A stretch of DNA of 64,000 bases, taken from Planctopirus ephydatiae. Lineage in GTDB: Bacteria > Planctomycetota > Planctomycetia > Planctomycetales > Planctomycetaceae. The stretch spans positions 682,001 to 746,000 of the forward strand of contig NZ_CP036299.1 in assembly GCF_007752345.1 (NCBI RefSeq). Reading direction: 5' to 3'. Below the pieces are notes generated by a model. The model was given only the letters and a program-made list of their open reading frames with translations. It ran no database searches and was not told where the DNA came from. The position numbers and the translations under genes were made by a program. This document shows, piece after piece, positions 191 to 55,820 of this stretch (the first letter of the stretch is position 1; the number at the start of each line of letters is the position of its first letter).

Positions 191-3100
191 TTACGCGGGT
201 GGTTCGTCTTTCTTCTGCTGTTGTCGCTTGATCTCGAGCAGTTTTTCATAGGTCGATTTGGCAGCACCTGGTGATGGCTTTTCGGTCTGCGTTTTATCTG
301 AAGTGGGGGGAGTCTTTGCAGATGGTGATGGCGGTGGAGTCACCGGTGGCTTGCGAATGACGGGTGGCCGCTGGGGTGGTGTTTTCCGCGATGACAATAC
401 CTCAGCGGCAGGTTTTCCGGTCTCAGTGGTTGTCTGCTGCGAACCGGACTTTTTCTGATCGAGCAAGGTTGACATGGTCGAGGTGACTTCCCGGCGGGGT
501 CTGAACCAGCCTTCCACGACAGACCAATCCCACTGAATGCGCCTCAAACCGACATCGAGGGGGACAAGACAGGCCAGCGCCACAAGAAACCAGTCAAAAA
601 TTGGACGTGAACTCTGGCGGGGTTCGCGCTCTTTCGGGAAGAGTTCGTCACTTTCTGGATCACCCGTCAAGACGCGCCCACCTGTCCTTTGGGCAATCTC
701 TTCGAGTAACTGGCGATTCGATCCAAACCGCAGATATTCCGGCGAGTAGGCCAGCACGAATCCGCCAAACGTCGATTCCTTCCGCTCAGCCGGTTGACCG
801 TCCACGCCGATTTTTGTTCCCGCACCTGCCACCGAAACGTAGTAGCGGCCTTGCCCCCAGAGCGGAACCAGCGCCTGATAGCGACGCGGCCCCACCTGCC
901 GGAAAGTGAGGCTTTCCGAACGATCATTCGGGCCACCGACGCGTCCGGAGATTTCCAGAAAGCCCTCTTCCGGGGCAAAATCTTCGACAATAACGACTCC
1001 CTGCGCTCCTTCGACATACGTGCTCAAGCGGAGTTGTGTGTCTTTGCGGATGCGGGCGATATCCGTGGTGAGCTGATTGAGGAAATCCTCATACTTGCCC
1101 CATGCCACCCAGTCCTTTCCCCAATTCTTGCCAAGTTCCGAAGTGAAAGCCGCCGTCTTCCCTAACCCGTGCTGGCGAATCGCCAGAAGTGGATCCAGCT
1201 GCGACTCTTCCTCTTTCGAACCGGGCGGAACTTTGAGCACAACCTGAGCATCGGGCTTGGCGGTCGTGAGTACATACCCTTTCAACTCCGGTAATGAACT
1301 GATGCCTTTCAAAACTGGCGAACTCGAAGCAACTTCCGGGAAGAAATCGCGGTTTTGAAGCATCGACCGGCGGAGTGTCTTCGATTCTTTGATGAAGATC
1401 GCTGGTAGCTGATTCGGATTGGTCGGCTTGTAATAACGCCCGCCAGTAATTTGTGCGATCGATGTCATCGTCGGCGTATCGACATCTCCGTGTGGAAACA
1501 CAGCGACGGTACTGATGGTCACTTTGGCGTCAATGAATCGCTTCAGTAGATCGGGCGAGGCTGGTGAAGGATCTCCATCGGAGATGATGATCATGTGTTT
1601 CGACGAAGCATCGCTCGCTTCGAGTCCATCGATTCCCAGTTGCATCGTCTGCTGAAAACTGGGCATATCACCAATCTCGGCCGAGTTAATCAGCAACGAC
1701 AGCTCTTCGTACTTTCCTGCGGGTGTGAGTTCAAAAATCCATTTCTCACCATCGTTGTAGTCATAGGCCAGAACGCCCACTTCATCCTGTTCGCCCAGAA
1801 CCTTAATGGCCTGCTTGGTGATTCGCTTGCCCCAGGTATTTCCTTCCGGGAATTCACAGGTATGCAGAATGATGGCCAGTGCTCCCTTAGGAAGCACCTT
1901 CTTTTGTGTGATATCCATCGTGACGGGAAGTATCTCTTCGACAGCCGTCCGGTGATATCCCCCGGGGCCAAAGCTCCCTGGCCCACCGACCATCAGAAAG
2001 CCAGTTCCCAGATCGAAAACACTGTCCTTGAGTGCCTGCAATTGAACGCCATCGAACTCATTGGCCGGGACATTGACAAACAAGATCGAGTCGTAAGGAA
2101 TCAGTGAGGAAGGGTCTCGCGGAAAGTCGACTCCAGCCATCACATCGACCTGTTTTTTGGCCTTGTTGAGAGTTTCGACCAGTGGTTCCCAATCGAGTGG
2201 ATTCCCCGTGGGATCGTAAACAACGAGGATTTTCCCCTCCCCTTCGACGACAATCCCACCCATGGCCATATTGTTTTGCGCCAGGCTGTCAGCTTCTGCC
2301 TCGGGTTCAATGGTGGCGGTATATTCATAGTATCCGGGCCGGCGTAAGGCGAGCGGGACTGCCAGGCGTGTCTTCCCTTCGCGATACGAAATCGTTTCTT
2401 CCACAATCGGCTGGCCGTTCTCGCGAACAACCAGCTTGCCCTGACCAGCCGACAAGGCCGAGACGATCACCGCCGCTTCATAGGTCTCGCCAATCTTGAC
2501 GTTGCTCGGAAGATCAATTCGCTCGACCCAGACCTCATGTTCGTAGTCATATTCAATAGGCACCACATCGACAGAAATCTTGCGGGATTTCAGTTCGTCG
2601 AGAATCCGGTCGAGACTCCCTTCAGTCTGAGATCCATCGGAAAACAGTACAATCTTCCCCGCCTGATCATCCGGCAGCATGGCACTTGAAAGGGAAAGTG
2701 CCTGCTCGATATTGGTGGCATCACCACGAATATCGGTATTGAGTGCCTCGGCCAGAAACGTGGTACGAGGTGGTAATTCCACAGCCGCGTTACGCCCGAA
2801 GACTGACAGCCCGGCTTCATCGCGAGCCGGTTTCTTTGTGACAGTTTCTGCAATATAGCGCAGCACCTGATCCTTGGCTGAGCGGCCGATCGAATCGGAC
2901 GTATCCAGCACATACATCAGTGATTGTCGGTCGTTCTCACGAACAGCGCGGGGTTCAGCCAGCAGAAATGCCAGAACTCCGACCATTGCCAGACGAACCC
3001 ACAGTGCCATCCAGGATCGCAGCCAAGGTAAGCCCGGCATCCCCGCCATGTGCAGCCACCAGACCCAAACACTCAATAGCACCAGCGAGAGTGACCATGG

Positions 3101-3259
3101 CCGGGTCAATAGCAACACCCGACTGGCCTCCAGCCAGAAGACAATGCCCACGGTCAAGGCCATCGAAATGAGTAATGGCGCAACAGTCCAAGGCGTCACT
3201 GGCTTGCGAGCCGGTGGAAAAAGTCGCATCAGCAGGTACTGTGCTTGTTGCCACATCAC
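191..3259 (-). CDS. Large membrane-anchored VWA-domain protein with glutamine-amidotransferase-like middle region
   Basis: A 1022-aa protein. Three hydrophobic segments lie in the first ~105 residues (about 27-47, 56-75, 84-104), followed by a von Willebrand A domain whose MIDAS motif DTSDS is at 119-123. The middle (about 340-450) contains LVVYDPTG and FLMVGGPGSFGPGGY, which resemble the GATase1-like fold often joined to VWA domains. A second VWA-like stretch (about 455-640) with IIISDGDPSP follows. A further hydrophobic segment lies near 880-900, and the last ~60 residues are Pro/Lys-rich and probably disordered. The architecture matches large bacterial VWA/BatA-type membrane proteins with most of the chain outside the membrane; the precise function is unknown. 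It is the last gene of a minus-strand run behind an ABC importer (88-bp gap), so co-transcription is plausible but not shown. The start gives N-terminal residues MMWQQAQ directly before the membrane segments. Confidence 0.85.
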   Translation of the reverse strand: MMWQQAQYLLMRLFPPARKPVTPWTVAPLLISMALTVGIVFWLEASRVLLLTRPWSLSLVLLSVWVWWLHMAGMPGLPWLRSWMALWVRLAMVGVLAFLLAEPRAVRENDRQSLMYVLDTSDSIGRSAKDQVLRYIAETVTKKPARDEAGLSVFGRNAAVELPPRTTFLAEALNTDIRGDATNIEQALSLSSAMLPDDQAGKIVLFSDGSQTEGSLDRILDELKSRKISVDVVPIEYDYEHEVWVERIDLPSNVKIGETYEAAVIVSALSAGQGKLVVRENGQPIVEETISYREGKTRLAVPLALRRPGYYEYTATIEPEAEADSLAQNNMAMGGIVVEGEGKILVVYDPTGNPLDWEPLVETLNKAKKQVDVMAGVDFPRDPSSLIPYDSILFVNVPANEFDGVQLQALKDSVFDLGTGFLMVGGPGSFGPGGYHRTAVEEILPVTMDITQKKVLPKGALAIILHTCEFPEGNTWGKRITKQAIKVLGEQDEVGVLAYDYNDGEKWIFELTPAGKYEELSLLINSAEIGDMPSFQQTMQLGIDGLEASDASSKHMIIISDGDPSPASPDLLKRFIDAKVTISTVAVFPHGDVDTPTMTSIAQITGGRYYKPTNPNQLPAIFIKESKTLRRSMLQNRDFFPEVASSSPVLKGISSLPELKGYVLTTAKPDAQVVLKVPPGSKEEESQLDPLLAIRQHGLGKTAAFTSELGKNWGKDWVAWGKYEDFLNQLTTDIARIRKDTQLRLSTYVEGAQGVVIVEDFAPEEGFLEISGRVGGPNDRSESLTFRQVGPRRYQALVPLWGQGRYYVSVAGAGTKIGVDGQPAERKESTFGGFVLAYSPEYLRFGSNRQLLEEIAQRTGGRVLTGDPESDELFPKEREPRQSSRPIFDWFLVALACLVPLDVGLRRIQWDWSVVEGWFRPRREVTSTMSTLLDQKKSGSQQTTTETGKPAAEVLSSRKTPPQRPPVIRKPPVTPPPSPSAKTPPTSDKTQTEKPSPGAAKSTYEKLLEIKRQQQKKDEPPA

Positions 3260-3347: not shown

Positions 3348-4268
3348 TCAACGAGAAATTTTCCAGCAGATAATCCGGCGATTTCCCGTATCGGCCACAT
3401 ACAGCCTTCCCTCGGGATCGTAACACACTCCCCAGGGAGTCCGCAGTGGTTCGGCAGCAAAACCTCGTCCCAGAAGTTCACCATTCGCGGAAAGCCTCGT
3501 CACCTGCCCGCTTGCATATTCGACAATCCAGAAATCAATCGCTTTTCCTGCCTCTCTTGAACCTGAGGCAATGTCATAAGGATAAGCCAGTTCGGCCTGG
3601 TTAAAATCGTTTTGCAGGAGCTTCCCCGTCTGTGCATCAAAGACCTGCACCCGACTGTTGAAGGCATCGACAATGTAGAGTCGGTTCTCTGACCAGACGA
3701 CACCGCTGGGCCTTTGAAATTCTCCCGGCCCCAGACCAAACCGACCCATTTCCAGCACCATCTGGCCCTCGGTTGTCAGCTTCTGACAGCGATCATTCGA
3801 GCCGTACTCGCAAACATACAGAAAGCCTTCCGGGTCTTGTGTAATCGCCACCGGATAAATGAACTCCGCTGGCCCTTTCCCTTCCTGCCCAAAGGTGTGG
3901 CTGAGAGTTCCATCGGGATGAAAAATCACCACTCGGTGATAGTGCGTATCTGCGACGGCAATCCGCCCGTCATTCAGCACACAGATCCCTTCGGCTTTCC
4001 CGACCGAATACTCGGGCATGTGCCACTTCCGCACGAGCTGATGCTCGCGGTCATACACGAGCACACGGCCGGCTGTATCGAGCACCAGCAATTCCCCTGC
4101 GGAGGAAACACATAATCCGCGTGGCGCGGGAACAAGTGGCCCATCGGCCGGGAGCATCCAGCGCGTTTCCTCTGCGATGGCCACCCGGGGTTCATCAGCT
4201 TTCCAGCAACCAGATAAGTTGAGCAGCAGCGCAATGAAGAGCAGCAGTGGCAGCCACCGCAATCTCAC
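3348..4268 (-). CDS. Possible separate NHL-repeat lipoprotein from an internal GTG start
   Basis: Alternative reading of the second half of the ATPase frame. GTG at 4268-4266 starts a 306-aa product whose first 21 residues have a textbook lipoprotein signal: Arg-rich start, hydrophobic core LPLLLFIALLL, lipobox LSGC. A GGGAG lies very close upstream (about 2-3 nt), a short spacing that weakens this start. The mature part is an NHL-type six-bladed propeller. Family knowledge: such propellers usually bind ligands or proteins and act outside the cytoplasm when lipidated. Whether one fused or two nested products are made cannot be decided from sequence alone. Confidence 0.45.
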   Translation of the reverse strand: MRLRWLPLLLFIALLLNLSGCWKADEPRVAIAEETRWMLPADGPLVPAPRGLCVSSAGELLVLDTAGRVLVYDREHQLVRKWHMPEYSVGKAEGICVLNDGRIAVADTHYHRVVIFHPDGTLSHTFGQEGKGPAEFIYPVAITQDPEGFLYVCEYGSNDRCQKLTTEGQMVLEMGRFGLGPGEFQRPSGVVWSENRLYIVDAFNSRVQVFDAQTGKLLQNDFNQAELAYPYDIASGSREAGKAIDFWIVEYASGQVTRLSANGELLGRGFAAEPLRTPWGVCYDPEGRLYVADTGNRRIICWKISR

Positions 4269-5267
4269 ACGGCTCCCAACCGGTGGAAAACTTCGCTGCC
4301 CGGCAACCCACAGAGTTCTTGATGTTTTTGGGCCATCTTCCATTCTGCGGGCATCAGGTTGGGTTGCCTGTTCTCGAAGAGCACGCAGTTCCAGCATAGA
4401 GAGCGGCCCGACGGTCTCCAGACTCTCCATCACAATGGAGGAATCGCTCGCTGCCAGAACCTCGACCTGTTCAGGACGTATATTCGCATGGGGCAATTCT
4501 TCACTCCACCAGAGTGATTGCTCTGTCTTCGAGAACCAATTGGTCGCCCCCAGCATCCAGGCCACTTCCTGCGTCTCTGGTGATCGGTAAACGTCGACAG
4601 GCCGACCACTGGCCACCAATTTTCCCTCTTCGAGGATCAATAGATGATCGGCACATCCCAGCACGAGTTCCGGCTGATGAGTGCTGTAGATCACATTCGT
4701 CTGTTGTTCCTTCCAAAAACCAGTCAAACTCTTCCAGAGTGAATGTGTCAGACTCGCCTGCAGATGAACGCAAGGTTCATCGAGGACAAGCACCGGTGCT
4801 TTCGAAATGACGGCTCGCGCCAGGCTCAGCCGGGATTGTTCGCCTTGCGAGAGCTGGCTGGGCAACCGATGTGCAGGGTGGAGTTCAAACAGTGAAATCC
4901 AGTCTTCCACCTGTGCCTGGCTTGAACCAACTGGGGCTGTGGCCTGCAAATGCTCGGCAATCGTCAAGTCGGGCCAGAGCCCGAAATCTGCAGGCATCCA
5001 GGCGATCGACAGAGTCAAGGGTTCATGGATTGCTTGATTGTGAGCCGTTTGATTCCAGAGGAGCTTCCCGGAACTCGGCTCTTCGAAGCCAGCCAGCAGA
5101 TTCAATAGCGTCGTCTTCCCAGCTCCGGATGGCCCCATGATGGCTGTCAGACCACAGGGTATGGTCGTGGTGATCGTCTCCAGCCGTTCACGACGGGCAC
5201 TGGCCGGAACAGTTCTCGCCAGGGCCAAAACGTGATCAAGCTGGCAAAGACCAGAAGGAGCTGACAA
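3348..5267 (-). CDS. ABC importer ATPase fused in frame to an NHL-repeat lipoprotein
   Basis: A single 639-codon frame. Residues 1-~330 form an ABC ATPase: Walker A GPSGAGKTT at 45-53, signature LSQGE at 139-143, Walker B LVLDEP at 160-165 and H-loop STHQPE, then a TOBE-like tail as in ferric/sulfate-type importers. At residue 334 the frame enters a perfect lipoprotein signal (RLRW, a run of leucines, lipobox LSGC with Cys ~354), followed by an NHL beta-propeller to the end (repeats such as GRIAVADTHYHRVVIF and GRLYVADTGNRRII). A cytoplasmic ATPase and a lipidated extracytoplasmic propeller should not be one polypeptide. A GTG at 4268, in frame and preceded by GGGAG, could start a separate 306-aa lipoprotein inside the ATPase gene. 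The ATPase end VGSRVRLRW then doubles as the signal-peptide start. The gene lies 80 bp after the permease, in operon order. Confidence 0.85.
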   Translation of the reverse strand: MSAPSGLCQLDHVLALARTVPASARRERLETITTTIPCGLTAIMGPSGAGKTTLLNLLAGFEEPSSGKLLWNQTAHNQAIHEPLTLSIAWMPADFGLWPDLTIAEHLQATAPVGSSQAQVEDWISLFELHPAHRLPSQLSQGEQSRLSLARAVISKAPVLVLDEPCVHLQASLTHSLWKSLTGFWKEQQTNVIYSTHQPELVLGCADHLLILEEGKLVASGRPVDVYRSPETQEVAWMLGATNWFSKTEQSLWWSEELPHANIRPEQVEVLAASDSSIVMESLETVGPLSMLELRALREQATQPDARRMEDGPKTSRTLWVAGQRSFPPVGSRVRLRWLPLLLFIALLLNLSGCWKADEPRVAIAEETRWMLPADGPLVPAPRGLCVSSAGELLVLDTAGRVLVYDREHQLVRKWHMPEYSVGKAEGICVLNDGRIAVADTHYHRVVIFHPDGTLSHTFGQEGKGPAEFIYPVAITQDPEGFLYVCEYGSNDRCQKLTTEGQMVLEMGRFGLGPGEFQRPSGVVWSENRLYIVDAFNSRVQVFDAQTGKLLQNDFNQAELAYPYDIASGSREAGKAIDFWIVEYASGQVTRLSANGELLGRGFAAEPLRTPWGVCYDPEGRLYVADTGNRRIICWKISR

Positions 5268-5347: not shown

Positions 5348-6955
5348 CTAAGAATTTCGAGTCTGTCGGGCAATCACCATCGACGGCCCGGGGATTGTGT
5401 GCCGGGAATCGTATGACCTGGGACGTATGCCCGAGGATCGCATGCAGATAGAGATCAGCATCGCCAGCACTGAGAGCAGGGCGAACGGTAGGATCGCCAG
5501 CAGCAAAGCTTCTGCTGTCAATGCCGCCGAATGCCCGTAATGCATAAAGTTGTAGAGCCTGACTGTGCCAGTGGCCATCCCGGTGGGTGCCAGTAAAGCG
5601 GTCAGCAGCACATCCGCACAGGCGAACGTCGCGATCAGCACTCCGAGCCACAACCTGGGCTTGAGGGCCACTTGAAACCGCCAATTGGCCAGTTTCTGAA
5701 AAGTTGAACCTGTGTGGAATACTTCGGGAATCATTCGATCGAAACCCATTTCTGTATGGGCCACTCGACGCAATCTCCACTGGCCCTTCAGCCTGAGCAC
5801 TTGATCTGCCAGAGAGAGAGCAGCGGCCGGTTGCCTCGATTGCAACATCGATTCCACCAGCCATGCCAGAGGAAAGATTTTGATCACCACACCAGCGAGC
5901 AGCCAGAGAGGCAGGCTCATGCGCCAGCCTGTGGCATCTGCTAGAGTGACACTCAGACCACGAAGCATCAGCCCGATGGTCAATGCTCCCAATAGGCCCA
6001 GCGTCAACAGCCCATACCCTAACCATCTGGCGAATTCAAACTGCCGATGACCTTCAGAATGTGTCAGACTCCTGGTCGTGTACTGAGCCAATCCCAGGGC
6101 GATCATGGTGGCAGTTGTTGCAAGCAGCAGGCTGGTCACCACTTCGTTCAATAAAATCGAGCGCTGTCGGCCACCTTGCCACATGTATTGTCCCATCCCC
6201 CCAGCATCTTGAATGATCAGCCAGACGAGTGGCGAGAACATCACACCCGCCAGTACCAGCCACAGGCCTCCTCCGACAACACTCAAACTTTCCAGCTTCG
6301 AGTGACGATTTTCAGTCGAATTTTGATGTGGCTGAAAATTGCCTGTGACGAAAAAGCTGTGCTGAGTTTGACCAGCGAGTGCCAGCAGTAACGCGATCAC
6401 GGCTGGAAAAATCACCAGTTTTAAGGTCTGGTTCAACGGTAAACCTCCCGCATGATCGACAAAGAGATCATCAGTCCATGTTCTCACCCCCAGAAGTGCA
6501 CTCAGTTCAAACTCCTGAAAAGTGAACAGCAGCACGAGAGCGAGAGCCCATTTCCAGCGCGACCATGAGCCGCGAAACCGAGACCATAGAGGTAAGGGGC
6601 GATGCTTTCGGGCCAAGTCCCGACCGAGCCACTCCGCAGAGGATGTTGACTCTTGCCGAGGCCCGCACCAAATCAGCAGCAGGGCCAGAGGCGTCATCCG
6701 CGTCAGCAGTAACCCCTGATAGACCAGTTCGCCTTCGATAATGGAAAGTCCGGTACGATTCCATGCGTATGTCAGGAGCAGGGGAGGCACCATCCACACG
6801 ATGACAGCAAGGGCTGCGATCAACGGTCTGATGAGCACAGAAAATCTGGTCTCAGTTCGCCAGAGAGAGGCCATCGACCAAGCCAAAGGCCACGCGAGAC
6901 TCGTGACGAGAATCGCTCGCAATAACGTGAGGATGACCGATTCTGTCATTCTCAT
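5348..6955 (-). CDS. ABC transporter permease, Fe3+/FbpB-type double-length
   Basis: A 535-aa polytopic membrane protein with roughly a dozen hydrophobic segments in two halves, as in FbpB/AfuB-type permeases. The start chosen is ATG 6955, whose last two bases form the stop TGA of the binding-protein gene (ATGA overlap), indicating translational coupling. A longer frame reaches back to 7069 but its extra 38 residues are hydrophilic and overlap the upstream gene out of frame. Another ATG lies at 6949. The second half contains an EAA-like cytoplasmic loop region before GVLIATFACADVLLTALLAP. The partners are the solute-binding protein upstream and the ATPase downstream. The substrate is not readable from sequence; ferric iron is the commonest for this family, but others are possible. 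Confidence 0.87.
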   Translation of the reverse strand: MRMTESVILTLLRAILVTSLAWPLAWSMASLWRTETRFSVLIRPLIAALAVIVWMVPPLLLTYAWNRTGLSIIEGELVYQGLLLTRMTPLALLLIWCGPRQESTSSAEWLGRDLARKHRPLPLWSRFRGSWSRWKWALALVLLFTFQEFELSALLGVRTWTDDLFVDHAGGLPLNQTLKLVIFPAVIALLLALAGQTQHSFFVTGNFQPHQNSTENRHSKLESLSVVGGGLWLVLAGVMFSPLVWLIIQDAGGMGQYMWQGGRQRSILLNEVVTSLLLATTATMIALGLAQYTTRSLTHSEGHRQFEFARWLGYGLLTLGLLGALTIGLMLRGLSVTLADATGWRMSLPLWLLAGVVIKIFPLAWLVESMLQSRQPAAALSLADQVLRLKGQWRLRRVAHTEMGFDRMIPEVFHTGSTFQKLANWRFQVALKPRLWLGVLIATFACADVLLTALLAPTGMATGTVRLYNFMHYGHSAALTAEALLLAILPFALLSVLAMLISICMRSSGIRPRSYDSRHTIPGPSMVIARQTRNS

Positions 6956-8094
6956 CGAACGACATCCTCTTGCCTTAACCAGTTGACGGCCTGCTGACGG
7001 GCCTTGGTCAGCTCTCCATTTTCGACCATTGTCGCGAGGGGCCAGGCCTGTCGGCGAAGAGTCATCCACGGCTTCACTTCTTCGGGAAGCTGCTCTTCAG
7101 CGACTGTTCCCAGTGGTATCTGCCGGGCTCCCGATTGAGCAAGTGCCAGTTCGATTTCCGGTGAAAGGAGATACTCGATAAGTTGGATGGCTTCCGGCCT
7201 GAGCTGATTTTCCTTCAGCCGACGATGAGCAATCAAGGCCACAGTATTCGGGATGAGGATGGGTCGATTTCCATAAAGAAGCGGAAACATGGAAACAGCC
7301 GCCCCTTCGTCAATCGCCGAAAACGCATCATCAGTATCGGTCCAACCCAATGCCGCCGCATTTTGAGCCACGAGGTTTTTGACGGCACCATTTCCGGCCA
7401 CCACTCGCAAATGCCGCTGACTCACGGCCTCCCGCAGGGACTTCTGAATCGTCTCCAATCCCACCTTCTGTATCATCAGGCTCACTTGAGTCAACGTCGT
7501 ACCGTACAGTGGCCTGGCAATGGCAACGCGCGAAAGATCGCCCTGCTTTTCGAAATACTCGGCGAACAACTCGGCCGGTGCTCGGTCGGGCTGTTCCTTC
7601 TTTAGCTGTGAAACGAATTCATCCGTCGCGATCCAGACACGCGCCCGCGCGGCAAAACCTGTCCAGCGGCCCCGAGCATCGCGATCTCCAGGCGATCGCG
7701 CTTTCCAGCCAGGCCCCTGATGTGCGATCAGCCGGTCTTTCTCGGCGAGTGCGACCATGCCTAAAAGCTCGTTGTTCCAGAAGAGGTCGCATTCTGTCGT
7801 GGCACCTTCACTGATCAATTGATCGACTAGACCCAGGGATTTCGTGGCCTCTGTGTCATATCGCACAACCACCGGGATTCCCGTTTTTTCCGTGAACTGA
7901 CGGAGAATCGGCTCGGCGTAGACGGCATCATGCGCACAGAACACAACGAGTGATGTCGGAGCCGGTTGCTGGATCCAGCTCCAGAAGATGAAGAGCCCCA
8001 GAGCACCGACCATCGCCAGAGGCCACCACAGTCGAGCGGAATTTTCACGATGATTTGATCCGCTCAACCTTGGTGCCCCGTGTGCAAGTTCCAA
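6952..8094 (-). CDS. ABC transporter periplasmic solute-binding protein (FbpA/AfuA-like), membrane anchored
   Basis: A 380-aa protein. A single hydrophobic segment at about 23-41 (LAMVGALGLFIFWSW) looks like an uncleaved anchor or signal peptide; no lipobox follows. The rest is a type 2 periplasmic binding fold: SLVVFCAHDAVYAEPILRQF at the start, ATECDLFWNNELLGMVAL in the first lobe, AALGWTDTDDAFSAIDEGA in the second, and a C-terminal helix with YLLSPEIELALAQSGARQ, all typical of family 1 iron-type binding proteins. It is the first gene of the importer operon; its stop overlaps the permease start. I cannot assign the ligand: the paired tyrosines of ferric-binding proteins are not obvious. Confidence 0.87.
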   Translation of the reverse strand: MELAHGAPRLSGSNHRENSARLWWPLAMVGALGLFIFWSWIQQPAPTSLVVFCAHDAVYAEPILRQFTEKTGIPVVVRYDTEATKSLGLVDQLISEGATTECDLFWNNELLGMVALAEKDRLIAHQGPGWKARSPGDRDARGRWTGFAARARVWIATDEFVSQLKKEQPDRAPAELFAEYFEKQGDLSRVAIARPLYGTTLTQVSLMIQKVGLETIQKSLREAVSQRHLRVVAGNGAVKNLVAQNAAALGWTDTDDAFSAIDEGAAVSMFPLLYGNRPILIPNTVALIAHRRLKENQLRPEAIQLIEYLLSPEIELALAQSGARQIPLGTVAEEQLPEEVKPWMTLRRQAWPLATMVENGELTKARQQAVNWLRQEDVVR

Positions 8095-45183: not shown

Positions 45184-45417
45184 TGGCCATTGACCTCACT
45201 CATCGGGTTTTCGGCCACCCAATCACATCGATGACTGGCAGGCAGGCGATGATGAAAAATCGATAAAGTCAGCCAGTGCAGAAACTCCCTGTAGAGAACT
45301 CTTGAACATGTTGAGCATAATGTGCCAAGTCCGTTAAGGCTCCTGAGTGGCCTTTGTCTGACATTGCACTTTCATGCCTGACTGTACTCCACAGTTGTAT
45401 TCGACAGGTTGGCCCTT

Positions 45418-47007
45418 ATGAGTTCTGCCGGCATGCCCCAAGACCCCTCCGCTGATCCCGAGAAAACTTTCATCGCATCCGATGTGCCTGATGGTGCTTT
45501 GGCAGCCACGAACATTGCGCCCGACACAGTTCTGACTGGCTCAACAGATGCTGGAGGCGAAGCGACAGGGAAGAGTTCGTCGACTACTGCTCCGCAGCGG
45601 ATTTCTCAGTTGGGCGACTTCCGTTTAATTCGCAAGCTTGGCGAAGGGGGCATGGGAGAAGTTTTCCTGGCTCATCAGGACAGTCTTGATCGGAAAGCGG
45701 CGATTAAAGTTCTGTCCAAGAAAATTGCCGATAAAGGCGACTTCGTGAAACGGTTCTATCGCGAAGCGCGGGCGATGGCGAAGATCGATCATCCGAATGC
45801 CGTGCGCGTTTATGCCGTTGATCAGGATCACGGCGTGCACTTTGTGGCCATGGAGTTCATCGATGGCAAGAGCATGCAATACTGGATCGAGACTCTGGGC
45901 CGACTTTCTGTTGGTGATGCAGTGCATGTCACGTTGCGATGTGCCGAGGCTTTGCAGCATGCCCATGCCATGAATATGGTCCATCGCGATATCAAACCTG
46001 ACAACATCATGCTGACGGCTCGTGGGCAGGTGAAGGTGGCGGATTTTGGCCTGGCCAAAGCCATCGACGATGAAGACAACTCGCTGACACAGAGTGGAAC
46101 CGGGCTGGGAACACCGTACTATATGGCTCCCGAGCAGGCGCGCAACGCCAAACATGTGGATGGCCGATGCGATATCTATGCCCTGGGGGTGACGCTCTAT
46201 CATTTTCTCACGGGAAAACTGCCATTTACTGGCAATACCACCGTCGAACTGATCATGAACAAAGAACAGGGAAAGTTTCCACCGGCGCGAAAGGCGAATC
46301 CCGAGATCCCGGAAAAGCTGGATCTGATCATCGATAAGATGGTGGCTGTCTCTCCTGAACAGCGATTCAAGGATTTCGGCGAAGTGATTCGTTACCTGGC
46401 GATGTTGGGCCTCGAAAACCCTTCACTGAGCTTTATTCAGGCTCCCGACAAGGTGGTGGCCACAGCCAATACGGCCACTGTCAAAAGTCCTGCTGCCGCC
46501 ACGCGAAGCCTGCCCGCGGTGCCGAAGTCTTCCGCTGAAGATGCCGCCCAGCAGAAGCAGGCAGCGGCGAAGGAGATCACCTATGCAATTCAGTTCATCG
46601 ATGCCCAGGGAAAGCCATCGACTGCGAAGATGACCGCCCCAGCAATTATCAAAGGGATCAAAGCCGGCATCATTGACCAGCGGGCGAAGATCAAAAAACC
46701 AGGTGCGAGATCCGCGATTCCGATTGCTCAGCTCCCTGAATTCGAAGATGCCATTCAGGCGATCATTGTTCGGCAGGAAGCGGAGAAAAAAGGCCGGGAT
46801 ATGAAGTCGCTGTATGCCCAGATTGATCGGCAGGAGCGATGGCGAAAGTTCACCCGCAAGATTCGAGCGGCCCTTTCAGGTGCCTTGGGCTGGGTCAGTC
46901 TACTGATCTGGCTGGGATTGATTGCCGGTGCGATTTACGGGGTCTACCTGCTGCTGCCACTCCTCAGACAGAACATTCCGTTTCTTGAAAAGCTGGGTGG
47001 AAGCTGA
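45418..47007 (+). CDS. Membrane-anchored Hanks-type Ser/Thr protein kinase
   Basis: A 529-aa protein from ATG 45418; a TTG start at 45409 adds three residues. The kinase core: LGEGGMGEVFLAHQ loop, Lys 97, HRDIKPDNI (~189-191), DFG (~209-211), GTPYYMAPEQARN activation loop. A ~130-residue linker contains ITYAIQFIDAQGKPS ... AGIIDQRAKIKKPG, which resembles a GYF_2/DUF4339-like domain. One hydrophobic segment near the end (WVSLLIWLGLIAGAIYGVYL) anchors it, leaving only ~15 residues outside, so the kinase is cytoplasmic. It is convergent with the giant envelope protein gene 78 bp downstream. Confidence 0.93.
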   Translation: MSSAGMPQDPSADPEKTFIASDVPDGALAATNIAPDTVLTGSTDAGGEATGKSSSTTAPQRISQLGDFRLIRKLGEGGMGEVFLAHQDSLDRKAAIKVLSKKIADKGDFVKRFYREARAMAKIDHPNAVRVYAVDQDHGVHFVAMEFIDGKSMQYWIETLGRLSVGDAVHVTLRCAEALQHAHAMNMVHRDIKPDNIMLTARGQVKVADFGLAKAIDDEDNSLTQSGTGLGTPYYMAPEQARNAKHVDGRCDIYALGVTLYHFLTGKLPFTGNTTVELIMNKEQGKFPPARKANPEIPEKLDLIIDKMVAVSPEQRFKDFGEVIRYLAMLGLENPSLSFIQAPDKVVATANTATVKSPAAATRSLPAVPKSSAEDAAQQKQAAAKEITYAIQFIDAQGKPSTAKMTAPAIIKGIKAGIIDQRAKIKKPGARSAIPIAQLPEFEDAIQAIIVRQEAEKKGRDMKSLYAQIDRQERWRKFTRKIRAALSGALGWVSLLIWLGLIAGAIYGVYLLLPLLRQNIPFLEKLGGS

Positions 47008-47085: not shown

Positions 47086-50000
47086 TTACCCAATTGCTGA
47101 GCTGTTCCAACTGGCCTGAGTCGCCAGGACAACCAGCAAAGTACACAGACCTGCCACACCGAGGCCAGCCAGAATGGCAAATAGAGGTGGGAGAGTCAGT
47201 GCTGCAATTGTGAGGATGAGAATCAAAAGGAGTGTGGTGAGCTGAAGCCAGCGCTGTTTCTTGTCTGGGGTCACAATTGCCACCATCCAGGCTGCCAGAA
47301 CGATGGAAGCGCAGAGCCATAACCATCCCCAGAGAGATCCCTTTCTGCCGGAGGGGACAAATTCAAGTGCCAGGCGGGCGTCGCCACCGGCTTTCGAGAA
47401 TCGCACGGTCTGGCCACTTTGAGGAAGTTCTGCCACAACGGAAAGTCCTTGAGAGACAGCACCTCGACTGGCGGGCAATTCGAAATCGACCATATCACCC
47501 AGACCACCACCTAAGCCGCCCGTGGCAACACTCGTCCCGCCAGAACTGGGAGCCAATTCAGAGAGGACGAAGAAATCGTCGCGTGCAGCTGCGTCACGGG
47601 CTTTATCCTGGCCATCCTTTGCTCTCAGCAGACCCATTTCATCCCACTGAGATGATGTTGACTGAGACGAGGTTGACTGAGCTTTGTTTTCTCCCAGAGC
47701 ACGCTGCTGGAGTGCAATGGAATCAGCCGCATTACGTCTCACTGCTGCTCGACCAGGTTCCACAGCTTGACTTCCTCGATCAAACTCCTGTTTTCGAGCT
47801 GCGGAATCTTCTGACGATGACAAATAGCGTTCCAGCGATTCGCCCGATTTGGATTTTGCCAGATCCAACTGCTGGCGCTGCTGTGACTCTTCCATCCGGT
47901 TCCGCACGGCACTGTTCAAGGAATCGAGCTGCCGATCGTTGAAGGCCTGGTACTGACGACGGGCATCGAGTTGTTCCCGTGCGTCCTGACGATCTTTCTT
48001 GGATGGTGCGGACTCTTGAACAAATTCGTTTTCCGTGAGTTCGGACTTAAACCAGAAGGTTTCACCTTGAGAAAAATGATCCGCCTGAGACTGGCTGCGG
48101 TTATCGGTCAGGATCTGTAAAGCATTCGACTGTGCTTCGAGAGCACCTTCGGAAGGTTGCCCCAGGATGATGCCGTTGACTGCCAGCCCAGAGTCAGCCA
48201 GTGACTGGTTTTGCAGGCTCAGCTTTTCACCTTTTTGTTCGACCTTGCGTTGTAATTCCTGAAGTTGCTTTTGCGTGGCATTCAAACTGGTTTCGTACTC
48301 ATCCACAGCGGCTAAATCTTTGCCTGAAGCACGACTACGGTAGCTGGAACCATCAGAAAGTAATGACTTCAGTGCGATGCCATTTCCCAGAGCCTGTGCC
48401 TGAAGTGAGAAATTGGTCGAATTGTCGGCAATCGAAATCAGATAAGACAGCTCCTGCAAGCGAGCCTGTTGCAGTGATAACTCAGATTGCACCAATGAGG
48501 CGCTATTCAGATTGTTACGCGTGAGGTCGGCCAAGCCAGTTGCCTGCAGATCGTTGGGAATGGAAACCGCCCAGCGTGTGCGGGAAACCGGAATCCCGAG
48601 AGCTTCATCTTTTTCGGGGCTGATGACTTGTGGTGCCGGAATATCGAGTTGGCGGGTTGTCCAACCACCTCGGGCCGGCAATCGGCCATTCAGCTTCCCG
48701 GCAATAGTGATCTGCACGGTAATCGAAAGGTCGGCAGCACTTGTACGGGGTAAAGCCACCAGTTGAATAATTTGGCCGTCTTTCGACGATTGCACCGCTC
48801 GGGAAGGGGCACCATCGATCAAGACCGTGAGGAGTCTGGCTTCCGCAGGAATGGCCAGCGGCAGGAACTGGCGCGAGCGATTTTTAATCAGGTAGGTGGC
48901 ACTGGTTCGATAAGTCCCATCGCGGGAGAGAATCGTTACCAGGTCGGCCAGATTCACACTGGCCGCTGCCAGTCGAGCCTGCGTTAACGCCACGGCTTTC
49001 CACTTCAAAGAGACACCGGAGCTTTTCACTCGCAGAAGTTCAGCAGCCCGTTTAATGAGATCATCATTCAGTGCAATACGCAGATCATCGCGAGTGACGG
49101 CATCGGCCTGTTCGGGAGCTTCACGAGTCAGCACGCTGCGCGAAGGATTGAGCAAGAGGACATAATGAGATTGCGGAATCGACTCGACAGAGCCTGTGTT
49201 GGTGCGGTCTGCCTCAGTCGTTTCAAAGCGTAAGCCGGGCGAATGCACCTGGAGGTCGCGAAACTCCGTCGTCGCGACTGCAGCCAGCGAAAGGCTGCCC
49301 AGAACGGGTGTTCGCAAAGAAATCGTCCAGTGAGGGCGACCATCTTTCCCTTTGGAAGTAGCAATCGACCGGATTTCAGCACCAGAAAATTCGAGTTTGC
49401 CAGCAAATTCAGGGCTCGCAGAAACCTCAACCACATCGGCAGCAGCACGAGCAATCTGCCAGTTCAAAAGGAGTGAATGAGCAATCGCACCATCAGTCAC
49501 ACTGACGATCGATAGCGATTCAGCCGCCAGTTGCGGCTCAAGTCTCGACAGCGAGAGCGAAATGGGACGGGTGGTCTGACTTTCTGAAGAAAACGCGAGT
49601 TGAGGAGCCTGACCGTGTTTAAGTTGAGTCAACCCGGGAGAGAGGGTGGCGGGATCGATGGATCTCCAGCCTTCCAGGTTGGAAAAGTTCGCGGTAATGG
49701 CGGAATCTGTCCAGAGACCGACTTGTGAACTCAATCGATCCACATCGGTTAACTCGGGAAGCTCCAAGGCCATAGACCAGCGGTTCTGACCATTGCGGCT
49801 GAAGGGGACTGCCCCAGCCAGAAGAATCTCCAGAGTCCCTTCACGTGGCGATTTCCATTCGAGAGTCAACAGGTGCTGGCCTTCTGTGCGGGTTTCGTAC
49901 CAGTCCTGTAAGCCTGCACTTTCGACTCTGAGTGGCTGCCAATCTTTAGGAAGACGCAAGGTCAATGTCGCGCGAGGCACACCCGAGACCTGAGCGATAA

Positions 50001-53000
50001 TCCGCGTGGTTTGCTGCTGGCGTGTGGGAGTCATGAGCACGCCATGCTGAGCCTGGGCGGTGATGCGGGACAACTGCCTTTGAACCCGCAGTTCCAGTGC
50101 ATAAGGCCTGGCCGAGAATCGATAGGCGAACTGTGGAGCGGCAGCCGGGCGACTGACAGGGACTGAGCCACTGAAGCGAGAAGTATCAATTTGTGTCAGT
50201 AACTCGGTTTTATTCACCCGCACGTTGAACTGGCGAGCCGCGAAGACACCTAAGGTTCCCGTTTCATGTGTCACACCGACAGGGATCAGCTGTGGCGCTT
50301 TCAAAACAGTCGGTTCTTGCGAGACGGGAAGTTCGAAATAGGCATCGATCGTGAGGCGGGTGGTGTCATCGACATTTCGTCGCAGATAGACTTTCAGTTT
50401 TCGCGCGGGGTCTTCGCCAGAGAGTTCCCAACTGCCGACATCGGGGCCTGTGACCGATTGAATTTTGAGTGCTGGTGGAACCTGAAGATCGAGTTCAATG
50501 ACACTTCCCTGCCGGATCAGATATTCAAGCCCTGTGCTCACCTTCAGGCCGGTGTCATCAAAAGAAAGAGCAGTGAGTGAGTTCAGCGAGACTGTGCGGT
50601 TGGCCACATTGAGTTCACCTTCGGGCTGCCAGGAGATTGACACCTCGTTGTAAGAGCTGAGTGAGACTTCGACCTTTCGCGGCTGGTCGTTTCGGGCGGG
50701 TGTCTGCCGGAAGCCTGTCGTAGCGCCATTGAGCCGGACGAGCAGACCCTCTTTGGGAAGATTCCAGATCAGTTTACCACCGGTCAAAGGTTCGAGGAGG
50801 ATCTGGAACTGGCCAGCCGAGGGTGAGGAGTTGCGATCAATAATCGTTTCCAGATCGAGGACATGCAGTCCTTCTCCAGTGATCAGGATTTGCTGCTGCG
50901 AATCTTTAGAAACCAGCGGGGCTGCTTTGCCATCCAGTTCAGCCCGGTTCCACGCCAGTTGTTTGAGTGGTAAAGCCATCAATTGAGGAGTGCTGGTTCT
51001 CGACAGATAGACCAGCCTCGCTTTTAAGCGAACATCATGTGTCCACTGGCTCTGGGCGGGTGTGGCTTTTTCGTCTGCGGGAGCTGGTTGTGCTGCTTGT
51101 GTGGTATCGGGTGCGGATTTGACCTGTGGTTTAGGTATGAGATCGACCGCTAATGTTGTTTCGGCCAGCCCGCCGGCATGAGGGGCTGCGGCCTTGGGTC
51201 GTTTGTCGGGGTTGGCCTTCAAATACAGTTCGAGGTACTTTTCGTAAGGGATGAAGACCTGCTGACTCCCTTCGAGAATCGCTGGGTCGGTGAGATCACC
51301 ACTCGCCACAGGAATGACTGTTTGATTGACAGGAGGCGAAGAGGGAAGAGGGGCTATTGCCTTCTGAGCTTCCTGGTCGTTTTTTTGAACTTCTTCCTGT
51401 GCTAAAAGTGGAGTGACACAGGCCGACCAGAGACATAACCCTACAAAAAGGCTTGCCAGTTGACCTGGGCCAGACCATCGAGTTTTGCAGCAACGTGAGA
51501 GGCAGCACGTCAGACAGAGATCGATCAGTGAGTACAGCGCGACACCCAGCCACACCATCAGTCCCCCGATCATGGCGGCAAACAAACCATCGAGCCAAAG
51601 CTGTGCACTGGCGGGAAGCACACCACTTAGGCCAATCACGAGGGGAAGACCAATCCCGAGAATCAGCCATTTGCGTGTGGCAGGAAGTTTACGGCAGAAC
51701 CACGCGATGAGTGCTCCCATGCAGAAGAGCCAGCGTCCCCAGAGTGTGATCTCCTGACGGTCAAGATAGGTCAGTTTCAATGAGGCGACTTCTCCTCCAT
51801 CCAGGCTTTCGCCAGTTCCGACATAGCGAAACTCTCGGCTGCGTGTACCGGCAGGTGCCTGCCAGTTCAAAGCCAGTGAGAGCCGGGATGTGCCTGATTT
51901 TATTCGCCACGATTGATCAGCACGACCTGTCAATGTTTCAGCCCCTTCGCCAGCAATCGCAGGACGTACCTCAGGAGTGGGAGTTGCTGGCGTTTTACCA
52001 TTGATCACTTCCTTGCCAGCTTCTGCAGGAACCGGCATGCCGGTAGCAACCGGCTGCGGCTGGTTCAAAGCCACGGCAGAATCGGTTACGGTGCCGAAAG
52101 GGTCACTCAGTTTTGGTAAACCAGGTTCAGCAGCGGGAGCCGCAGCGCTGGGAGGCGCAGCAGGCTTGGCACCAGCCCGCAGCATCTTGCGAGATTCTGG
52201 CATATTCGAGTCAGCCTGTGCTGGAGCATCAAATGCAGGTATGGGGGCATCGATATTGGACATCGGTGTGCCATCCATCTCTTCCAGACGTTTCATCGAT
52301 TTCTCGACAGCCTCACCAGCGAAATTTCCGACGGCAGACTCCGTATAGGAAAATGAGGTTGTGGGCGCTGCCGTGCGGGAAGCGACCGTTCGTCGTTCAG
52401 CCAGGCCACCCAGAAAGAACCAGGGTCCTACGCAGACGAACAGCACCAATCCCAAAGCAAGAAGACCACCGGCACCGGCACAACCCCAGAAACCAGCCTT
52501 GAACCGGAGATAACAGGCTCCCGCAGTGAAGAGAATGATGAGCCCAGCGACCAGCAATAAGGGAATCAGGCGATCCCAGCTCGGTTGTTGGAAGAGTTCC
52601 TTCAATCTGGCCAGTTCTCCCGGCTGATCGAGCGGAGCGGTCGCTTCCAGTAAACCATTCTGCCTGACGAGTAACAGTTTCTCGGGATAGTGGACTTCCC
52701 ACGTCTGCTCGAGCACTTCCACGGTTTCGAGAGCGCTCGATGACGTCACCACATTCAGCACAGGGGTTGTCCCCTCAAATTGGCTGGCCTGTGCCGCTCG
52801 ACCAGCCGTTGCATGATCTGTCTCGTAATAGACGACCACCGACCGTTCCATGCCGCCGACAGCTGAACGTGCAGATGTGTTGTTCGCACCCTCATTTCGA
52901 TTGCTCAGAGGAACCAGAAAGCCTCGTGAGGCAAGCCTGGCTTCTACAGCCCGCCCATCAACCATCACTGCCCACAAGCGGCTCCCCTGACCAGACTGAC

Positions 53001-55572
53001 CGGCATCTCCGGGCAATTGAACACTGAGATTCTGCACATTGGCGACCTGCAACAGGAATTCGGCCCGATGCTGCGCAGCACCGACCAGAGGCAGGTGAGT
53101 ATCGACTTTCAGGCGGCGGCAGATCGCGCTGGGAAGTGCCGATCGATCAAATCGTTGCTCACTCACAACAACCCTGGCTCCTTCGGCCAAAGTTTCGAAC
53201 AAAGCCACCAGTCGCTCGCGAGGAACCCAGTTCGATGGGGGGAGCTCTAGCAGATCGGCTTCTTTCAGAGGCGATCCATCAGCCGCCAGGGCATCAATCG
53301 ATAACTTCTGATCCGGGCTGGCTTCGAGAGCGATAAACCCGCTGTGGAGTTGAGAATCGAGCACCAGCAGTTCGGGAACTTCAAACTTTTCGGCCTCAGG
53401 TCTGGGTTGCTCAATCGTCGCCCAGAGCGTCAAAGCTCCACGGGCACGTTCCGCGAACCGCAGGATCCACAATCTGCGACCTTTCACAACCGGGCCATCC
53501 TGTTGCTGAACGATCCGTCCGCCGGCACCTGCCAGTGAGAACCGCAAATCGGTCCCGACACTTTCCGGCAATGTCAGCATCAGTCCGCGAACGCCACCAC
53601 CTTGAACTTCGACTTGCACGGAAACAAATGACGAGATCGACTGCTGATCGAGTCTCCAGCCGGTGAGACCTTTCGTGATCCAGCGGGAAGGCTGCCTCGA
53701 AATGTTCAAGCCAGCCTTCCAGTTATTAACCTGCGACTGCAGCCTGAGTCGCTCGTCTTCCGCTTTGAGTGGTGCCAGATCAATCGCCACGAGATCGCGA
53801 GCAGTGACATCAAGATCTTCATCCGCACGAACTACGACAGCCGTCTCTGTGAGAGTGGCTTCGGCGATTGGTAACGAAGGTAAGACCAGCGAGACGGGAG
53901 CGTTTTCTTCCACCGGCCAGTTCTCGACAAGCTGCCTGGCTGAGAATCGGATCGACCTTCTCTCACCCGGAAGTAATGGTTTATCGAGGGCCACACGAAT
54001 GCGATTGATTCCTGCATCTCCTGGGATCGTCTGCCAGGTTAACCCCTGACCTTCGGCAGTGCTGGCCTGCAGTAATTTCCATTCAGCAGGAAGATCGAAT
54101 TCGAGATCAAACAGCGAGACATACCGGGTTTCAACCATCGTACTGGCGGTGAGTTCAATGCCACGGGAAGTGATTTCGACAACCATTGCGACCGCTGTAT
54201 TCAGTTCGCGGGCTTTGGGTTCAGTCATGAGGTTTAACTCAAAATCTTCCCGCCAGACTTCAAACTCGATGGAAGAATAGGAGTTGTTATCGCTGGGCGA
54301 GTTATTGGCGGCAGGAGCGGGGTTTTTGGGAGTGGCAGCAACGCCTTCCGAGCGGCGCACTCCGTTTTCTTCTAATGTTCGTAAGCGGACTTCCTGCGGA
54401 TGACGCACGATGAGTTGCCCGATATGACTGGTGGCTCCATCGATCTTGAGTGGTGGTACCGACCAGGCTTCACCCACTTGTGTGGGCATGACGCCACGAA
54501 CTGTCAACGTGCGCTGACCTTCAAATGGTTGCGAGAAGACCAGTGACATTTTTGTTCGCTCGGGATTCGCCGGGTCATCGGAGAGTGTCCACGCTTCGAG
54601 GCCTGTCGATTCGATGGCAGCGACTTCAAGCTTTGATGGGACAGACAATTCGAGTCGATCAATCGAGCGGCCAAAAACCTGCAGGCTGGTCAAGGCCTGC
54701 CAGGAGACTTCACCGGGACTGCTGACAAGACCATAGGCTGTGCTGGCAAAGAGCAGAGCGTCGGTCGCTTTGGCTTCGGCTCGTTCGGTAAGACGCCATT
54801 GAAAGCGGCCCTGCCCGCCAAAGGGGAGGCGATACTCATTCGCTTCGGTGAGTGGTTTCAGGCGATCCAGGGTCATGCCAGAAGAAACGAGTTGTTTCTT
54901 CGGTGGAACAGTCACCACGATTTCCCCGGCAGGGACAGGTGGCAGCACAAAGGCCGCGACCTGATCACTTCCTGCATTGACCAGAGGTGTCGTTAACTGC
55001 AACTCTAAATGATGAGTGCCGATTTCATTGGTCAGGAGTTGCAGAGGTGGAGCGGGCAGTCGAACCGATTTTTGTTGAGTTTTGACCATGGGCTGGATTT
55101 CGAACGCGGGCCGATAGAGTGGTGCAGGTTCTCCATCCAGCCGAGCGGAGTCGATGGCAAGACGTTCAAGTCCAGGGATCTTCCATTCAGCCCAGCCTGG
55201 GGTGAGTTGTTCGAGTTCGAGCTTCAGGTTGATGACGAGGACAGTCCCTTCGATCGTGGCCACAGCCGTGCCGCTGGTAATCACCTGATGAACCGGCGGA
55301 GTGGGGGAGTTGTTTTTGATCTGTGCTTTTTTGAGCAGTGCTTCGTAGTCATCGCGTGAGAGCAGGACACCTCGCTTTTGAGATTCAAGCACGGCCTGCA
55401 GATCTGCCAGAGGGACAAATACTTCTCGTCGGATGCTGGGTGATTCACCACTTTCGACAGAAACGTTCTGTACTGGTCGATTGGTGGGGGGCTGTGCCTG
55501 TGCCCGCTGTGGTGAACTCAAGCCGCACACCATGCACAGCAGAGCAGCCATGAGCCGACAGATATCGTTCAT
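47086..55572 (-). CDS. Giant envelope protein (~2828 aa), two tandem modules
   Basis: About 2828 aa from ATG 55572, beginning with a signal peptide (LMAALLCMVCGLSSPQRAQAQ); a longer frame to 55671 adds 33 residues. Module A (~50-1000) opens with EVFVPLADLQAVLE and has SARLDGEPAPL. A membrane segment follows (~1000-1040, IPLLLVAGLIILFTAGACYL), then a hydrophobic cluster (~1277-1375). At ~1365-1385 a signal-like stretch (LASLFVGLCLWSACVTPLLA) precedes module B (~1400-2360), which opens QQVFIPYEKYLELYLKAN and has RAELDGKAAPL. The last ~450 residues are coiled-coil/Gln/Ser-rich and end in two membrane segments (~2747 on). No enzyme motif is seen. The modules are mainly beta-rich repeats. An envelope or surface structural role is inferred. 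The 1174-aa paralogue lies upstream. Confidence 0.85.
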   Translation of the reverse strand: MNDICRLMAALLCMVCGLSSPQRAQAQPPTNRPVQNVSVESGESPSIRREVFVPLADLQAVLESQKRGVLLSRDDYEALLKKAQIKNNSPTPPVHQVITSGTAVATIEGTVLVINLKLELEQLTPGWAEWKIPGLERLAIDSARLDGEPAPLYRPAFEIQPMVKTQQKSVRLPAPPLQLLTNEIGTHHLELQLTTPLVNAGSDQVAAFVLPPVPAGEIVVTVPPKKQLVSSGMTLDRLKPLTEANEYRLPFGGQGRFQWRLTERAEAKATDALLFASTAYGLVSSPGEVSWQALTSLQVFGRSIDRLELSVPSKLEVAAIESTGLEAWTLSDDPANPERTKMSLVFSQPFEGQRTLTVRGVMPTQVGEAWSVPPLKIDGATSHIGQLIVRHPQEVRLRTLEENGVRRSEGVAATPKNPAPAANNSPSDNNSYSSIEFEVWREDFELNLMTEPKARELNTAVAMVVEITSRGIELTASTMVETRYVSLFDLEFDLPAEWKLLQASTAEGQGLTWQTIPGDAGINRIRVALDKPLLPGERRSIRFSARQLVENWPVEENAPVSLVLPSLPIAEATLTETAVVVRADEDLDVTARDLVAIDLAPLKAEDERLRLQSQVNNWKAGLNISRQPSRWITKGLTGWRLDQQSISSFVSVQVEVQGGGVRGLMLTLPESVGTDLRFSLAGAGGRIVQQQDGPVVKGRRLWILRFAERARGALTLWATIEQPRPEAEKFEVPELLVLDSQLHSGFIALEASPDQKLSIDALAADGSPLKEADLLELPPSNWVPRERLVALFETLAEGARVVVSEQRFDRSALPSAICRRLKVDTHLPLVGAAQHRAEFLLQVANVQNLSVQLPGDAGQSGQGSRLWAVMVDGRAVEARLASRGFLVPLSNRNEGANNTSARSAVGGMERSVVVYYETDHATAGRAAQASQFEGTTPVLNVVTSSSALETVEVLEQTWEVHYPEKLLLVRQNGLLEATAPLDQPGELARLKELFQQPSWDRLIPLLLVAGLIILFTAGACYLRFKAGFWGCAGAGGLLALGLVLFVCVGPWFFLGGLAERRTVASRTAAPTTSFSYTESAVGNFAGEAVEKSMKRLEEMDGTPMSNIDAPIPAFDAPAQADSNMPESRKMLRAGAKPAAPPSAAAPAAEPGLPKLSDPFGTVTDSAVALNQPQPVATGMPVPAEAGKEVINGKTPATPTPEVRPAIAGEGAETLTGRADQSWRIKSGTSRLSLALNWQAPAGTRSREFRYVGTGESLDGGEVASLKLTYLDRQEITLWGRWLFCMGALIAWFCRKLPATRKWLILGIGLPLVIGLSGVLPASAQLWLDGLFAAMIGGLMVWLGVALYSLIDLCLTCCLSRCCKTRWSGPGQLASLFVGLCLWSACVTPLLAQEEVQKNDQEAQKAIAPLPSSPPVNQTVIPVASGDLTDPAILEGSQQVFIPYEKYLELYLKANPDKRPKAAAPHAGGLAETTLAVDLIPKPQVKSAPDTTQAAQPAPADEKATPAQSQWTHDVRLKARLVYLSRTSTPQLMALPLKQLAWNRAELDGKAAPLVSKDSQQQILITGEGLHVLDLETIIDRNSSPSAGQFQILLEPLTGGKLIWNLPKEGLLVRLNGATTGFRQTPARNDQPRKVEVSLSSYNEVSISWQPEGELNVANRTVSLNSLTALSFDDTGLKVSTGLEYLIRQGSVIELDLQVPPALKIQSVTGPDVGSWELSGEDPARKLKVYLRRNVDDTTRLTIDAYFELPVSQEPTVLKAPQLIPVGVTHETGTLGVFAARQFNVRVNKTELLTQIDTSRFSGSVPVSRPAAAPQFAYRFSARPYALELRVQRQLSRITAQAQHGVLMTPTRQQQTTRIIAQVSGVPRATLTLRLPKDWQPLRVESAGLQDWYETRTEGQHLLTLEWKSPREGTLEILLAGAVPFSRNGQNRWSMALELPELTDVDRLSSQVGLWTDSAITANFSNLEGWRSIDPATLSPGLTQLKHGQAPQLAFSSESQTTRPISLSLSRLEPQLAAESLSIVSVTDGAIAHSLLLNWQIARAAADVVEVSASPEFAGKLEFSGAEIRSIATSKGKDGRPHWTISLRTPVLGSLSLAAVATTEFRDLQVHSPGLRFETTEADRTNTGSVESIPQSHYVLLLNPSRSVLTREAPEQADAVTRDDLRIALNDDLIKRAAELLRVKSSGVSLKWKAVALTQARLAAASVNLADLVTILSRDGTYRTSATYLIKNRSRQFLPLAIPAEARLLTVLIDGAPSRAVQSSKDGQIIQLVALPRTSAADLSITVQITIAGKLNGRLPARGGWTTRQLDIPAPQVISPEKDEALGIPVSRTRWAVSIPNDLQATGLADLTRNNLNSASLVQSELSLQQARLQELSYLISIADNSTNFSLQAQALGNGIALKSLLSDGSSYRSRASGKDLAAVDEYETSLNATQKQLQELQRKVEQKGEKLSLQNQSLADSGLAVNGIILGQPSEGALEAQSNALQILTDNRSQSQADHFSQGETFWFKSELTENEFVQESAPSKKDRQDAREQLDARRQYQAFNDRQLDSLNSAVRNRMEESQQRQQLDLAKSKSGESLERYLSSSEDSAARKQEFDRGSQAVEPGRAAVRRNAADSIALQQRALGENKAQSTSSQSTSSQWDEMGLLRAKDGQDKARDAAARDDFFVLSELAPSSGGTSVATGGLGGGLGDMVDFELPASRGAVSQGLSVVAELPQSGQTVRFSKAGGDARLALEFVPSGRKGSLWGWLWLCASIVLAAWMVAIVTPDKKQRWLQLTTLLLILILTIAALTLPPLFAILAGLGVAGLCTLLVVLATQASWNSSAIG

Positions 55573-55820
55573 GAAGAAGTATCGACCCTGCTCAACAGGC
55601 GAAGACTTCGTTCGGAGATTGAAGGCGATGAGTGACATCAGTTTATTCCTGCCAGAATCTGGCTCAGTCATTTCGCAGAATCAACAACATCTCTGGAAGC
55701 ATCGGTATCGATCATCGCTGGTCACTCGGAGTTTTCTGCCCAGCGGAGACTGCTCTCTTTCGTTCACGGCATTCGATGAAGAACGACTCTGAACTTCGGA
55801 GAGCGATATCAACTGAGGAA

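Follow-up and report, generated by a model that had tools for sequence, protein, structure and literature searches.

ATP-binding subunits of the FbpC, PotA and MalK type (NCBIfam PhnT2, PotA and FbpC; PDB 1oxs, 8zx1, 3d31 and 3fvq) drive ABC importers, and the first half of the locus considered here resembles them in its motifs and their order, in its MalK-type C-terminal region, and in belonging to an operon that also encodes a permease and a ferric-type binding protein. It departs from this type in two respects: its C-terminus runs into an export signal, and the Q-loop glutamine is replaced. No NCBIfam equivalog cut-off is reached by this ATPase, the best score being 119.8 bits against the 457.7 required. 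The second half resembles NHL lipoproteins of the same family that are encoded by separate genes. These share the cysteine-bearing signal and a VWA/GATase1_like neighbour, and among the matches listed and checked their propellers are 43–54% identical to this one; they have a start of their own, whereas here the signal is internal.

Two further systems bear on the arrangement as a whole. FbcH of Bradyrhizobium is a cytochrome b/cytochrome c1 precursor that is cut by signal peptidase. As in the present case, a single chain comprises two proteins that belong to one complex, and the cut is proposed to fall at an internal export signal; here, in contrast, a soluble ATPase forms the first half, and the lipoprotein-type signal would be handled by signal peptidase II. 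PknD of mycobacteria consists of a kinase, a membrane segment and an NHL propeller, and likewise joins a cytoplasmic nucleotide-using domain across the membrane to a propeller, but through a stable anchor, whereas the present protein carries an invariant lipobox cysteine. To our knowledge, there is no example of the lipoprotein pathway splitting a precursor with a large cytoplasmic enzyme as its first half. A literature search for such splitting found none, the portions available of PMC5837995 and PMC10924467 being concerned with other matters.

A single frame from ATPase to propeller

The locus lies in a stretch of 64,000 nucleotides from Planctopirus ephydatiae, referred to below as the window. 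Its central features are as follows.

3348–5267, minus strand: ABC ATPase, internal lipoprotein-type signal and NHL propeller in a single 639-codon frame (ORF reading, Pfam, same frame in relatives)
4269–5267, minus strand: ABC ATPase with a TOBE-like C-terminal domain, residues 1–333 (motifs and Pfam; the TOBE-like part assumed from a sequence pattern)
4257–4277, minus strand: dual-use segment GSRVRLR, residues 331–337, last TOBE-like strand and signal n-region (alignment of 72 loci; G331 invariant)
4206–4256, minus strand: hydrophobic h-region and lipobox LSGC, with the Cys354 codon at 4208–4206 (alignment of 72 loci)
3351–4130, minus strand: NHL beta-propeller domain, residues about 380–639 (Pfam, PDB matches, structure model)

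The frame opens with a TTG codon preceded by GAGGA 6 nt upstream, and an in-frame TGA lies three codons 5' of the start. The initial annotation, which gave no strand, had described one continuous frame holding a complete ABC ATPase and an LSGC lipobox with its cysteine near residue 354, and each of these observations holds. Read from the translation, the ATPase half contains Walker A (GPSGAGKT, 45–52), the signature (LSQGE, 139–143), Walker B with its catalytic glutamate (VLVLDEP, 159–165) and an H-loop STHQ with its histidine. When the product of the frame, read from 5264 and without the stop codon but otherwise whole, was compared with Pfam, ABC_tran matched residues 36–165 (E 1.1e-28) and NHL matched with E 2e-26 (91.1 bits against a cut-off of 20); a TOBE domain was not found in this product, and the TOBE-like label is our assumption from an IRPE...G.RV.L pattern. 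PDB matches of the propeller half include the TRIM71/Thin NHL chains. The structure model, built from an input of two sequences, is poor (mean pLDDT 48.3), with propeller blocks mostly at 55–88 and an unusable ATPase half. The lipoprotein-type signal is found not at the N-terminus of the chain but about 335 residues into the frame. As the initial annotation maintained, the two halves are predicted to belong on opposite sides of the membrane, and the arrangement is indeed unusual.

The gene is flanked by others of the same orientation.

5348–6955, minus strand: putative permease, its ATG overlapping the upstream gene's stop codon (ATGA)
6952–8094, minus strand: solute-binding protein, ferric-iron-binding-like (best PDB match E 2.1e-8)
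191–3259, minus strand: downstream VWA/GATase1_like membrane protein, conserved beside the NHL gene (domain search, neighbourhood comparison)

The operon of the window ATPase therefore contains both a binding protein and a permease, and the system is probably a ferric-iron-type ABC importer, as judged from these sequences, with ferric iron as the putative substrate. The permease assignment is provisional: searched as a single sequence, the 5348–6955 product matched no Pfam family at E ≤ 1, BPD_transp_1 included, and no NCBIfam model. A permease-like frame is present at 65 of the 74 fused loci described below and a binding protein at 29 of the 74, many fetched stretches being too short to reach the latter. 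The VWA gene follows the propeller gene at 72/74 fused loci, at 36/38 loci where the halves are separate but adjacent, and at 9/10 where the propeller has no ATPase in the fetched stretch; it is there with or without a linked ATPase, which hints that the propeller and the VWA protein work together.

Other frames of the window have features of related appearance. A 2861-aa frame (47086–55671, minus strand) has several hydrophobic segments, one of them resembling an internal lipobox in shape, and matched no Pfam family at E 0.01. It adjoins a 1174-aa frame (55821–59345, minus strand) of seemingly similar style by eye, with a signal, a beta-rich region and C-terminal membrane segments. At 45409–47007, the plus strand encodes a serine/threonine-kinase-like protein, also recognized by eye, that has a hydrophobic segment at its C-terminus.

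Fused and two-gene arrangements among relatives

The gene fusion is real and conserved. A first comparison with 40 relatives returned full-length single-frame matches in several genera, and a survey of the family gave a match at 1e-40 in 127 of 170 genomes. The stretches around the family matches were fetched and their frames sorted into fused, split (halves separate and adjacent) and unlinked (propeller present but no ATPase within the stretch fetched). An uninterrupted frame spanning ATPase and propeller is present at 72 loci, the window included, each from a different genome; together they cover 25 genera of the family, and 17 of the genomes are single-contig assemblies. A phylum sample produced matches at 1e-45 in 26 of 294 genomes and, besides members of the family, full-length single frames in three (G380, G208 and G321); a class-level search around G380 gave 1 of 29 genomes. 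A scan of named genomes found a single close relative, L055 from a Planctomyces sp. MAG, which lies on the same contig as L003 and was dropped from all counts, as was L056.

These counts rule out the base-call error that the initial annotation had offered as a way to lose the ATPase stop. More broadly, the chance that a sequencing error, or a stop decayed in this strain, joins the halves is vanishingly small: one related locus (L008, G023) does have a stop, a TAA within the ATPase half, but the same frame recurs across the 25 genera and in the three genomes beyond the family, and close pairs differ mostly by synonymous changes over both halves. This last argument does not extend to the junction of every pair, where counts are small and mixed (2 synonymous and 3 nonsynonymous changes for L001–L002; 10 against 38 for L001–L004). 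Of the 32 other frames of at least 250 codons in the 64-kb window, 2 contain an internal segment of roughly this shape, so it is conservation, not shape alone, that is decisive.

Orthologues are not uniformly of one kind, since fused and two-gene arrangements both exist. There are 38 split and 10 unlinked loci, and the two-gene relatives show that each half can exist alone. Split ATPases end near the same TOBE-like strand in about 32 of 38 cases, by a loose pattern that errs in both directions, passing L098 and L119 despite their earlier ends and missing L016 and L134, which fit by eye. At 13 of the 38 split loci, the ATPase stop and a possible start of the lipoprotein overlap by 4 bases. The locus L095 (G178), whose oddly overlapping frames probably reflect an assembly frameshift, was dropped from the tree and the split counts. 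Among the separate propeller lipoproteins, that of L018 (G022) has a signal of twin-arginine appearance (RRQFL...PTGC).

A propeller tree of 122 rows (74 fused, 38 split, 10 unlinked), in which L008 and L096, both outside the 72, were set as fused by hand, needs nine changes among the three states, and its starred branches force at least two changes of the fused label. With long rows removed (L018, L020, L087 and L008 left out; L146, L021 and L023 also absent), seven changes are needed, and a single origin of the fusion, with all fused loci in one clade, is rejected (AU p 8e-7). Fused G044 has the split G043 as its sister, with an SH-aLRT of 100. The fused state thus appears to have changed several times, with seven to nine changes on long-branched trees of a single gene; because the branches are long, no direction is claimed for any individual change. 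As the fused state is not one clade and changed this often, the covalent link seems dispensable in evolution, which is what would be expected if the chain is cut. Three split ATPases placed among fused relatives, L098 (G043), L093 (G101) and L094 (G102), end before the TOBE-like domain, as if that domain had been lost when the fusion broke.

The Q-loop glutamine is a coupling residue of ABC transporters. In the window it is replaced by alanine at residue 93 (4990–5000, IAWMPADFGLWP). Replacement extends to 66 of the 72 fused ATPases (Pro 28, His 19, Ala 12, Ser 4, Gly 3, with Gln in 6), whereas 30 of 38 split ATPases keep it; G043, G101 and G102, which are placed among fused loci, are among the split ones that lack it. 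The association between fusion and Q-loop loss is strong in raw counts, but it does not go beyond shared ancestry (independent pairs, median p 1).

The junction and the possible fate of the precursor

In the 72 aligned loci, the halves meet without a linker: a conserved G.RV.L strand is followed by 12–18 uncharged residues and then by the cysteine, the distance from the last charged residue to the cysteine having a median of 13. The cysteine occupies the lipobox position in 72 of 72 loci, preceded at −1 by glycine in 70 and serine in 2. No column other than that of Cys354 has a cysteine in at least 60 of the 72 sequences; it belongs to a set of 60 columns that do not vary at all, and within the junction itself it shares this invariance with G331. 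In the ATPase half, G45, S47, G48, G50, K51, S140, G142, E143, D163 and E164 are invariant as well. In separate lipoproteins of the same family, 46 of 48 have a recognizable segment, with a median of 15 residues between charge and cysteine (range 9–27), and in L020 and L102 a lipobox was looked for and not found. The retention of the cysteine at every fused locus argues for lipidation, which is strongly implied by this pattern. The genome of the window has one match each to the LspA and Lgt families, and because LspA normally acts after Lgt, cleavage would be the simplest consequence of lipidation.

The preferred interpretation, which the initial annotation did not consider, is that signal peptidase II probably cleaves the fusion. 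The locus would encode one precursor that is exported in part, lipidated at the cysteine and then probably cut by LspA, a reading to which a probability of about 0.5 is assigned. A single polypeptide would be made, and its ATPase half would fold in the cytoplasm. The positive end of the TOBE-like strand, together with the 12–18 hydrophobic residues, would act as an internal lipoprotein signal; the arginines and lysines of that last strand may have been a preadapted n-region, to which the joining of the genes gave both jobs. The chain would insert with its N-terminus inside, exporting the propeller, and Lgt would add diacylglycerol to the invariant cysteine. LspA would most likely cut before this residue, releasing the propeller as a lipoprotein and leaving on the ATPase a hydrophobic C-terminal tail by which it could be bound to the inner membrane beside the permease. 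ATPase and propeller lipoprotein would in this way be made in a 1:1 ratio for a ferric-iron-type ABC importer.

The main alternative is the uncleaved tether that the initial annotation had raised: the segment would stay as a bitopic anchor, with the cysteine perhaps lipidated, and the propeller, still attached to the ATPase, could pass signals to it. This reading is rather unlikely. The conservation of a single frame agrees with such a tether, as does the positive-inside pattern of charge, with a mean net charge at fused loci of +1.8 over the 8 residues before and −1.2 over the 10 after, which counts in favour of an internal lipoprotein signal too. A plain anchor would nevertheless leave the invariant cysteine and the Gly/Ser at −1 unexplained, and 12–18 hydrophobic residues are short for one. 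Positions −2 and −3 also speak for the tether: a PROSITE-like lipobox pattern fits 43/72 fused loci against 39/46 separate lipoproteins, and the strict form [LVI][ASTVI][GAS]C fits 22/72 and 19/46, although the LSGC of the window itself fits the full lipobox, −2 and −3 included. This looseness leaves room for poor or absent cleavage at fused loci, and LspA would have to accept a precursor with a cytoplasmic domain of 350 residues at its N-terminus. With no linker, it is difficult to see how a tethered ATPase could dock on its permease in the manner of MalK-type proteins, and two-gene relatives are nested among fused ones, as with G043 beside G044.

Separate synthesis of the lipoprotein from an internal start is the other route that had been proposed, at a GTG near the junction.

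4266–4268, minus strand: GTG (Val334), candidate internal start, not conserved as GTG

That the lipoprotein comes mainly from this GTG at 4268, or from a second in-frame TTG at 4262, with the long product minor, is quite improbable. The column is valine in 56 of 72 loci, and 17 of these 56 codons are GTG (30%), compared with 1377 of 3944 valine codons gene-wide (35%). Some usable start, defined as an in-frame ATG, GTG or TTG in the n-region with a basic residue after it, is present at 49 of the 72 loci, but 23 have none. Shine–Dalgarno-like 4-mers precede the candidate start at 7 of the 49, and per codon they are no commoner at the junction (11/115) than inside the ATPase (122/1201). Moreover, no stop follows the ATPase, and ribosomes must read on. 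As a general route, the nested start is rejected on these counts; it may hold for this genus alone, where GTG and TTG are accompanied by GGGAG 4 nt 5' of the GTG, identically in 3 of the 4 genomes examined.

Consequences for the family

Returning to cleavage by signal peptidase II, a fuller picture can be put forward tentatively, at slightly less than even confidence. LspA would serve as a precursor-splitting protease, the spent signal peptide would persist as a C-terminal tail holding the ATPase at the permease, and this arrangement would have been gained or lost repeatedly within the family. Should the chain be cut, the lipoprotein pathway would be a splitting device for precursors that begin with a large cytoplasmic enzyme. 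If it is not, an importer ATPase would be bolted through the membrane to a propeller, which could report on the outside to the motor. Either way, the natural occurrence of fused and two-gene versions in one family offers a ready comparison.
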